From NCBI GenBank assembly GCA_017560425.1, contig JAFZEX010000030.1, positions 1 through 40,048 on the forward strand: DNA of 40,048 bases, in the 5' to 3' direction. The position numbers were made by a program, and so were the translations under genes. The notes under the pieces were generated by a model, which ran no database searches, was not told the DNA's origin, and worked only from the letters and a program-made list of their open reading frames with translations. Numbering within the stretch: position 1 is the first letter of the stretch; each line of letters begins with the position of its first letter. Positions 15,368 through 18,494 of this stretch are shown one piece after another. This DNA comes from Alistipes sp. Its GTDB lineage: Bacteria > Bacteroidota > Bacteroidia > Bacteroidales > Rikenellaceae.

Positions 15368-17559
<2,192 letters not shown>

Positions 17560-17604
17560 AGTTTCGTTTCTTCTTTTTTCCTATGAAACGAAAAAGAAGA
17601 AACT
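17560..17604 (+). repeat. Left copy of a 45-bp exact inverted repeat (hairpin H1)
   Basis: These 45 bases are the exact reverse complement of 18258-18302. Each copy can itself fold: GTTTCTTCTTTTT pairs with AAAAAGAAGAAAC in the reverse orientation, with the loop holding CATAGG (CCTATG on this strand). No target-site duplication flanks the pair. Confidence 0.9.
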
Positions 17605-17629
17605 ATTGTTTAATCATCAAAAATATATC

Positions 17630-17680
17630 AATTATGAACGTTTTACGATATCGGTTGGGGTAGTGTCGTGGCAGAGAGAG
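17630..17680 (+). repeat. 51-bp direct repeat, copy A
   Basis: It starts AATTATGAACG and ends GCAGAGAGAG, and matches copy B (17751-17801) at about 47 of 51 bases. Both copies contain ATG followed by nine sense codons and TAG (MNVLRYRLG in copy A, MNVFRYWLG in copy B). Confidence 0.8.
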
Positions 17681-17687
17681 GGGTTGA

Positions 17688-17737
17688 TTTTCAATTTTTC
17701 TTTCTTTCAAAAACCCTATGTTTTGAATTTGAAAAAA
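17688..17737 (+). repeat. Hairpin repeat H2
   Basis: TTTCAAAAA and TTTTGAA surround the loop CCCTATG; outer A/T-rich arms pair less well. In reverse complement it matches the hairpins at 18065-18115 and 18162-18211, which share the CATAGGGTTTTTGAAAG core. Confidence 0.75.
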
Positions 17738-17750
17738 TAAAAACCATCAC

Positions 17751-17801
17751 AATTATGAACGTTTTTAGATATTGGTTGGGGTAGTGTCGTGGTAGAGAGA
17801 G
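17751..17801 (+). repeat. 51-bp direct repeat, copy B
   Basis: Second copy of the repeat at 17630-17680, placed after hairpin H2 as copy A is after H1. The left half of the element is thus two hairpin-plus-repeat units. The bases before its ATG (ATCACAATTATGAA) recur at the start of the gene at 24525. Confidence 0.8.
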
Positions 17802-17816
17802 AACAACAGGGAGATA

Positions 17817-17940
17817 AGACCCTTAGGACCTTTGGGACCATTAGGAGAGAGGACCATTAGGACCTTTAAGACCTCTAAGAAAAAAAGTGATACCTGAGTT
17901 TCGTAATGGTCTTAATGGTCTTATTCGTCTTATTGGTCCC
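17817..17940. repeat. Two opposing arrays of a nine-base repeat
   Basis: From 17817 to 17880 the plus strand carries units of the form RGACCWTTR (for example GGACCATTA, GGACCTTTA). From 17902 to 17940 the same unit runs on the other strand (AATGGTCTT). The arrays can pair into a long imperfect stem. The spacer AAAAAAGTGATACC is shared with the element at 21770-21857. Confidence 0.75.
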
Positions 17941-18025
17941 AAAAAAAATCTATTACTAATTAATTAATTAGTATGTTAGTGACAATGTAAGTAAGAGTAA
18001 TAGTGGTTGTCGCTACACACATAAT

Positions 18026-18115
18026 CAATACATTGAGGATAGCCCTTGGTTAAGGGATAAAGAATTTTCATTCAATTCAAAACATAGGGTTTTTGAAAGA
18101 ATGAAAATTTGAAAA
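18026..18115 (-). repeat. Repeat unit 1: linker plus hairpin H3
   Basis: The linker TTGAGGATAGCCC ... AAGGGATAAAGAA (18032-18064) is followed by a hairpin with arms TTTTCATTC/GAATGAAAA and TTCAAAA/TTTTTGAA around CATAGGG. The same linker-hairpin order recurs twice more (18120-18211, 18220-18302). Confidence 0.8.
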
Positions 18116-18119
18116 GCCT

Positions 18120-18211
18120 CAACAATACTTTGAGGATAACCCTTAGTTAAGGGATAAAGAATTTTCTTTTTTTTCAAAACATAGGGTTTTTGAAAGAAAG
18201 AAAATTGAAAA
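18120..18211 (-). repeat. Repeat unit 2: linker plus hairpin H4
   Basis: The linker TTTGAGGATAACCCTTAG ... AAAGAA is followed by arms TTTTCTTT/AAAGAAAA and TTTCAAAA/TTTTTGAAA around CATAGGG. Compared with H3, an A-T pair in the outer stem has become T-A, keeping the pairing. Confidence 0.8.
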
Positions 18212-18219
18212 AAAAACAG

Positions 18220-18302
18220 CAACACTTTGAGGATAACCCATGGATAGACGATAAAGAAGTTTCTTCTTTTTCGTTTCATAGGAAAAAAGAAGAAACGAAA
18301 CT
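18220..18302 (-). repeat. Repeat unit 3: linker plus hairpin H5 (right copy of the 45-bp inverted repeat)
   Basis: The linker CTTTGAGGATAACCCATGG ... ATAAAGAA leads into 18258-18302, which is the exact reverse complement of 17560-17604. The mirror-image mosaic ends here. Confidence 0.85.
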
Positions 18303-18494
18303 CGAAACTCGACGACCCGAGCCCTACGGCTTAATCCCGCGCTGGTTTATGGAGTGCACGCTGGGTGGCTATGGTCGAAGAACAGGTGTTGCAGATGTTG
18401 TAAACTTAGCGGAGTATTGTCCGTTCTAAGCGAGAGGTTAGGAGATATTAAAAAAAATTATCAACGACCCACTACTAATTACTATTTTTTTTCA

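Follow-up and report, generated by a model that had tools for sequence, protein, structure and literature searches.

In Rickettsia palindromic elements the palindrome lies within a reading frame, and in plasmid RSF1010 RepA is a helicase and RepC acts with iterons. The RSF1010 primase uses the ssi hairpins ssiA and ssiB, one on each strand (PMC4434180). For Tn4555, PMC13183296 lists the same kind of gene pair that we describe here, an AAA ATPase and a DUF6371 protein. The transposase TnpA_REP is described as co-evolving with REP (PMC8266576), and a GTAG or GTGG tetranucleotide beside the palindrome, on its 5' side, is a REP criterion (PMC3686654).

We analyzed a window of 40,048 nucleotides, contig JAFZEX010000030.1 of an Alistipes sp. 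genome (1.84 Mb, 89.6% complete), in which a mosaic of inverted repeats lies between gyrB and a HAD gene. Judged by its sequence, this region is very probably a decayed copy of a chromosomal Alistipes cassette encoding an AAA_25 ATPase with a helix-turn-helix (HTH) and, behind it, a zinc-ribbon/DUF6371 protein. Like REP/REPIN sequences with their RAYT, such cassettes have inverted doublets apparently cognate to a protein gene and occur in tandem and dispersed copies, but the partner is an AAA ATPase with an HTH and no HuH transposase, the loop core is conserved, and one hairpin is in frame. They differ from Rickettsia palindromic elements in the fixed position of their hairpins, the matched pair, and the putative cognate helix. 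The likeness to RSF1010-type replication is one of anatomy alone, comprising helicase-like and putative primase-like partners, a hairpin per strand, and iteron-like boxes; unlike RSF1010, the cassette is chromosomal with no plasmid, its boxes lie within the hairpin stems, and a zinc-ribbon/DUF6371 protein takes the place of RepB'. Tn4555-like mobilizable transposons share the AAA ATPase and DUF6371 pair (PMC13183296), whereas the contigs of seven cassettes carry no tyrosine integrase.

The repeat mosaic in the window

The features of the region are, in order:

17401-17559, plus strand: remnant of the AAA_25 ATPase gene with the C-terminal HTH (RDEGKTLQQIADALGYKSISSVHALLHSK) and its stop at 17557-17559, from alignments to the intact protein P0003
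17560-17604, minus strand: outer left hairpin of stem type A with loop CCTATG, repeated exactly as an inverted copy at 18258-18302
17634-17682, plus strand: start of the zinc-ribbon gene, first stub (ATGAACGTTTTACGATAT...), its ATG equivalent to the ATG of other copies
17688-17743, minus strand: inner left hairpin, stem type B, like the copy on contig C4 (repeat analysis)
17755-17803, plus strand: start of the zinc-ribbon gene, second stub, a tandem duplicate (direct repeat)
17810-17940, no strand: opposing 9-nt arrays around AAAAAAAGTGATACCTGAGTTTCG, inside the zinc-ribbon gene, of an array type dispersed in the same genome
17966-18058, plus strand: second half of the zinc ribbon, matching query residues 39-73
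18063-18109, plus strand: inner right hairpin B1 (repeats, hairpin search, covariance model)
18160-18206, plus strand: inner right hairpin B2 (repeats, hairpin search, covariance model)
18258-18302, plus strand: outer right hairpin, type A, loop CATAGG, inverted copy of the outer left hairpin
18310-18429, plus strand: remnant of the DUF6371 gene with its linker RRPEPYGLIPRWFME (linker match at 18319-18363)

An earlier sequence-only reading had described an exact 45-bp outer inverted repeat, two left-hand units, three right-hand units in opposite orientation, and opposing nine-base arrays in the center, and we recovered all of these in place. Positions 17560-17604 and 18258-18302 are reverse complements of each other without a single mismatch (45 nt, 100%); the longest exact inverted match arising by chance in 1000 dinucleotide shuffles of 17560-18302 was 22 nt, with a mean of 11. 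The left-half unit, a hairpin plus N-terminal stub, is present twice as a 65-nt direct repeat at 17616 and 17737 (86%), and the right half consists of linker plus hairpin three times at 97-nt spacing (18026, 18123, and 18220), an array that an array search found again. The central 9-nt arrays, of the GACCATTAG/GACCTTTAA type at 17818-17880 and the TAATGGTCT type at 17904-17938, look like a separate dispersed element. Because the inner hairpins have TTTTC... stems and the outer pair GTTTC GTTTC TTC, and because the inner arms are 89-95% complementary across the center, the whole reads as a nested A-B...B-B-A mosaic. The outer type-A hairpins are identical and the inner type-B hairpins, which resemble those on C4, have diverged; this is the residue to be expected of repeated copying between the outer left and right hairpins, and a single recent event is equally compatible with it.

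The arrays at 17810-17940 have 23 matching rows elsewhere in the same genome, spread over 12 further contigs (C6, C9, C10, C13, C17, C18, C27, C30, C33, C38, C41, and C45), and C18 has a similar array-center-array plan with a related center. On contig C23 of a related genome, G022, a hairpin pair encloses three units of about 75 nt made of opposing 10-nt arrays, with no recognized zinc ribbon (L254, 1250-1700).

The same reading had seen no convincing gene between gyrB and the HAD gene. This holds for the region today, but the remains of two genes are recognizable, and what the gene-free reading overlooked is a pseudogenized cassette with its putative cognate ATPase. The ATPase remnant aligns best with residues 296-331 of intact P0003 (47% over 36 aa), a second alignment covers residues 178-230 (36% over 53 aa), and the stretch before the HTH resembles ATPase residues about 178-198. 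An internal deletion in the ATPase gene is likely, short of certain because the second alignment overlaps the best one. The zinc-ribbon/DUF6371 copy is a fragment (its relatives P0002 and P0004 pass both Pfam cut-offs, Zn_ribbon_16 and DUF6371), in which an internal deletion has probably fused the linker to the C-terminal tail (...CPF stop), a tail with weak similarity by eye. The HTH is still readable (ISSVHALL), belongs to the class seen at L186, and goes with the outer type-A hairpins. Both genes are dead; deletions and array invasion would have killed them, the outer hairpins meanwhile remaining identical.

The repeat unit also recurs elsewhere, as a second mosaic on contig C4 of the same genome, detected by BLAST, and in many copies in relatives. 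Several contigs end at such hairpins, as they might if the repeats were an assembly artefact; the window's genome, however, has two distinct copies, and other assemblies contribute many loci, several of them deep inside long contigs, and we regard such an artefact as a negligible prospect.

Cassettes in related genomes

Pairs of both genes are found in relatives of the same genus. Of 151 genomes of the genus searched, 29, that of the window included, have matches to the zinc-ribbon/DUF6371 protein; 26 have matches to the ATPase, the window's genome not being one of them. A scan of a named collection gave 59 loci, the close ones from Alistipes sp. and Rikenellaceae MAGs, largely of the ruminant gut, and the distant ones from other Bacteroidota. 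At the gyrB-HAD site, where the window has its mosaic, G022 has an ATPase-DUF6371 unit, and the close relative G017 carries an intact pair beside dus, the gene that the C4 relic adjoins (the names dus, argS, rho, and gpmI are our presumed assignments from the protein sequences; gyrB and HAD follow the sequence-only reading).

In both-gene cassettes, the stretch separating the ATPase stop from the next start codon holds the left hairpin. The right hairpin is an in-frame part of the linker that follows the zinc ribbon, and the reading frame runs open through it in all 12 inspected copies that have one. The G022 cassette is without a right hairpin, as are the distant copies outside the Alistipes group. 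Comparison with Rfam gave sub-threshold matches only, and PADLOC gave weak matches only, to the ATPases alone. Among solved structures, the ATPase had no match at E 0.01, and the zinc-ribbon protein matched only zinc fingers, weakly. In the openly licensed literature, judged by title and start of abstract, we found no account of these hairpins.

In a sister group with the order DUF6371-ATPase (L116 and L117), hairpins with a TATAGGG core surround the two-gene unit, the outermost in opposite order to those of the other cassettes. Upstream of the start codon, more distant DUF6371 genes (L185, L124, and L125) carry strong hairpins of another kind, which lack the ATAGG core. In L040 and L257 (G011), the hairpins adjoin GC-rich mini-hairpin arrays (GGGCGGAGCTAAAGCTCC and similar). 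Both-gene cassettes have a conserved promoter-like block upstream of the ATPase, with a palindrome like GTTCAGTTCTTGAAC, and the window's genome retains a single isolated copy of this block on C18 (L011, about 1968-2030).

Hairpin pairs and the recognition helix

In a search for hairpins that ignored their sequence, right hairpins were sought at 57 loci and left hairpins at 55. Where zinc-ribbon identity was about 70% or more (29 loci), right hairpins reached threshold at 21; among the remaining 28 loci, one did so (L086, likewise a relic of the genus). Of the eight misses, five have a core-bearing hairpin just under threshold (L158, L162, L166, L168, and L172). The overall yield of 22/57 compares with 7/57 for a control stretch inside the gene and 1/570 for shuffles, and that of left hairpins, 24/55, with 3/550 for shuffles. 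The ATAGG/CCTAT core, which played no part in finding them, is present in 20 of the 22 right and 16 of the 24 left hairpins.

Stems differ from locus to locus while both hairpins of one locus match. Across 33 distinct loci, left/right similarity was 0.86 within a locus and 0.28 between loci (0/10,000 permutations, best 0.44), the hairpins being located via the ATAGG core and the best left/right pair taken per locus, which slightly favors the within-locus value. The hairpin's own partner was its best match in 24 of these loci, and the right hairpin of another locus was better in nine. The copying between outer arms proposed by the sequence-only reading is therefore supported, left/right matching within a locus being a rule of the family in these 33 loci. 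In an alignment of 22 hairpins, all chosen beforehand for having 13 or more of the 16 pairs, which inflates pairing, 16/16 stem pairs had changed on both sides (shuffled mean 13.1), with a covariation score of 0.90 against 0.21 for shuffled stems. At lag 8 the 5' arm has a self-identity of 0.85, against 0.14-0.54 for the remaining lags up to 12, and this 8-nt periodicity gives boxes such as GTTC, TTTC, GTCC, and GTTG around the ATAGG core.

With up to 150 candidates scored per genome, a covariance model gave 69 matches, in 7/7 genomes with zinc-ribbon matches (3 to 25 per genome), and none in 5/5 genomes without such matches. Its six matches in the window's genome all fall at C4 and C24, and it missed the outer pair. 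A neighbor lies within 700 bp of 49 of the 69 matches; same-strand neighbors number nine, and opposite-strand neighbors are in the '-+' arrangement in 18/18 cases.

These properties bear on whether the hairpins are REP/REPIN (BIME) sequences moved by a Y1 (RAYT/TnpA_REP) transposase. The term REPIN-like, used in the sequence-only reading, fits their look: they form inverted doublets (the 18/18 '-+' pairs agree with the two inverted hairpins of REP), pair in apparently cognate fashion with a nearby gene, and occur in tandem units and intergenic relics. It does not fit as a statement of membership. The Y1 transposase domain (Y1_Tnp, PF01797), which that reading had suggested as a check, was found neither in the window's genome (0/1) nor in genomes with cassette matches (0/17, of which 12 are not in the at-least-90%-complete class), whereas 5 of 14 control genomes were positive. 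GTAG or GTGG occurs within 8 nt before the stem or in its first 6 nt, on either strand, in 19 of 94 distinct hairpins, and seven of the 19 belong to a TGGTTGG stem class in which GTGG is part of the stem. Moreover, 3 to 25 model matches per positive genome stand against the high copy number of REP, and hairpins in and beside the ATPase/DUF6371 genes, the right one intragenic, stand against the almost exclusively intergenic REP. Movement by a Y1 transposase is thus very improbable here.

We compared the hairpin stems with the HTH of the cassette's own ATPase. With stems and helices extracted by script at 28 loci, recognition-helix distance correlated with stem distance in a Mantel test, which is not tree-aware (r = 0.434, 0/5000). 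The adjacent helices of the same HTH showed r = 0.052 (1373/5000), and the partial correlation with these helices as control was 0.422 (0/5000). A hand-extracted set, including loci that fail the script filters (L037, L098, L115, L126, and L170), gave r = 0.39 (0/5000, n = 31) and, given zinc-ribbon distance, a partial correlation of 0.38 (0/5000, n = 29). In the hand set, the signal was strongest at zero-based positions 4, 9, and 10 of GYKSISSVHALLHSK (0/2000 each), weaker at 2, 8, and 12 (3 to 4/2000), and marginal at 0 and 1 (60 and 52/2000), and positions 3, 5, 6, 7, 11, and 13 showed none (264 or more/2000).

Within the 15 both-gene cassettes, the helix-stem correlation was 0.357 (11/5000) and, given the ATPase body, 0.361 (9/5000), and stems were uncorrelated with the ATPase body (-0.06), the zinc ribbon (0.09), and the DUF6371 segment (0.156, 374/5000). 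Simple linkage fails to explain the helix-stem correlation because the zinc ribbon, which lies between both hairpins, shows none; the HTH and left hairpin are adjacent in the DNA, and co-transfer could add to it. The same helix class can accompany different stems, lysine with GTAC and GTCC, and histidine with GGTT and TTGTTTG. On these correlations, the ATPase HTH probably binds the stems of its own cassette's hairpins.

In the same 15 cassettes, ATPase and DUF6371 distances agree with one another (r = 0.53, 0/5000), but agreement between zinc ribbon and ATPase is poorer (r = 0.255, 636/5000), a hint of module exchange.

Neutral palindrome dynamics, in which slippage and template switching build and homogenize hairpins with no protein function, would suit stems made of short repeats, tandem units, and hairpins that stay alike in dead copies such as those of the window and L104. 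This reading has little probability in view of the recognition-helix covariation with its adjacent-helix control, the core kept in hairpins that were found without using it, the fixed orientation, and the lack of model matches in 5/5 genomes without a cassette.

Movement of the cassettes and a candidate mechanism

Cassette positions differ between close relatives. The gyrB-HAD site is empty in G017 and filled in the window (241 compared with 1180 bp), with flanks 99% identical at the gyrB N terminus and 90% in HAD, and the rho site is empty in the window's genome and filled in G017. At gpmI, both genomes have the flanks, and the window's genome has lost the hairpin-zinc ribbon-hairpin segment (L074 compared with L038). 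L264, L266, and L100 keep the HTH, one hairpin, and the linker, with the zinc ribbon gone, and tandem right or left units as in the window occur in L083, L096, L102, and L104. Alignment of filled with empty gyrB-HAD and rho sites yielded no clean junction and no target duplication. We dropped the idea of a fixed relic endpoint: the right edge is variable, and the left edge, placed partly by eye, falls between ATPase residues about 277 and 326.

Long inverted repeats around a start codon could serve as an invertible switch, with a recombinase flipping the gene start enclosed by the hairpins so that DUF6371 is switched on or off, and the sequence-only reading had considered an invertible segment. 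Inversion has indeed happened in L098, where the hairpin-bounded module is inverted relative to both flanks, but this is the case in 1 of 91 rows only, some loci being listed twice. A programmed switch is unsupported because a search covering tyrosine integrases (PF00589) as the one recombinase type found none on the contigs of seven cassettes, though such integrases exist in 8/8 genomes. We consider this kind of switch improbable.

The hairpins might instead be operators or RNA structures through which the ATPase HTH represses or loops the zinc-ribbon gene. The left hairpin does lie between the genes, the HTH tracks the stem, and the promoter region has a separate palindrome, but the right hairpin is inside the coding sequence, the cassettes change position and lose their module, and the conserved loop core would be left unexplained; a regulatory role of this kind is unlikely.

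As a whole explanation, we lean toward a combination of cognate HTH/hairpin pairs, a box code, and a replication-like mobile module. The ATPase would bind its own hairpin stems via the HTH, in the manner of an iteron-binding helicase, and its zinc-ribbon/DUF6371 partner would prime DNA synthesis at the folded hairpins, one per strand. Copying or template switching between left and right hairpins would keep both alike; it would also give rise to tandem units and cause the hairpin-bounded module to be inverted or lost. The ATPase matches include phage primase and helicase families, one DUF6371 relative lies inside a phage protein annotated as DNA primase/helicase, and DUF6371 matches occur in 11 plasmid records, mostly of Bacteroides. 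From these matches, the Tn4555 gene pair, and the finding of no Y1 transposase and, for the contigs of seven cassettes, no tyrosine integrase, we infer a replication-like module. A role of the cassette in replication, drawn by analogy, is itself tentative, a little short of an even prospect, and priming alone needs no common left and right stems, which speaks against this explanation.

It is possible, although we hold it doubtful, that the cassettes represent a new class of mobile element: two genes with no recognizable recombinase, an ATPase that would read a private 4-nt code, repeated in paired hairpins with a conserved core, and a module that may be lost, inverted, or exchanged. Each lineage would then copy only its own cassette, because helix and hairpins change together.

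The cassettes offer hairpin repeats with a putative cognate protein beyond the HuH transposases. They also offer a mobile gene pair that changes place with no recombinase found, neither a Y1 transposase nor, where the contigs of seven cassettes were searched, a tyrosine integrase. Paired hairpins that track the helix of their own ATPase point to a new kind of protein-hairpin partnership. The family provides about thirty naturally occurring protein-DNA pairs, a series along which a single recognition helix has changed together with its target boxes, and therefore a DNA-reading code that would be directly testable.
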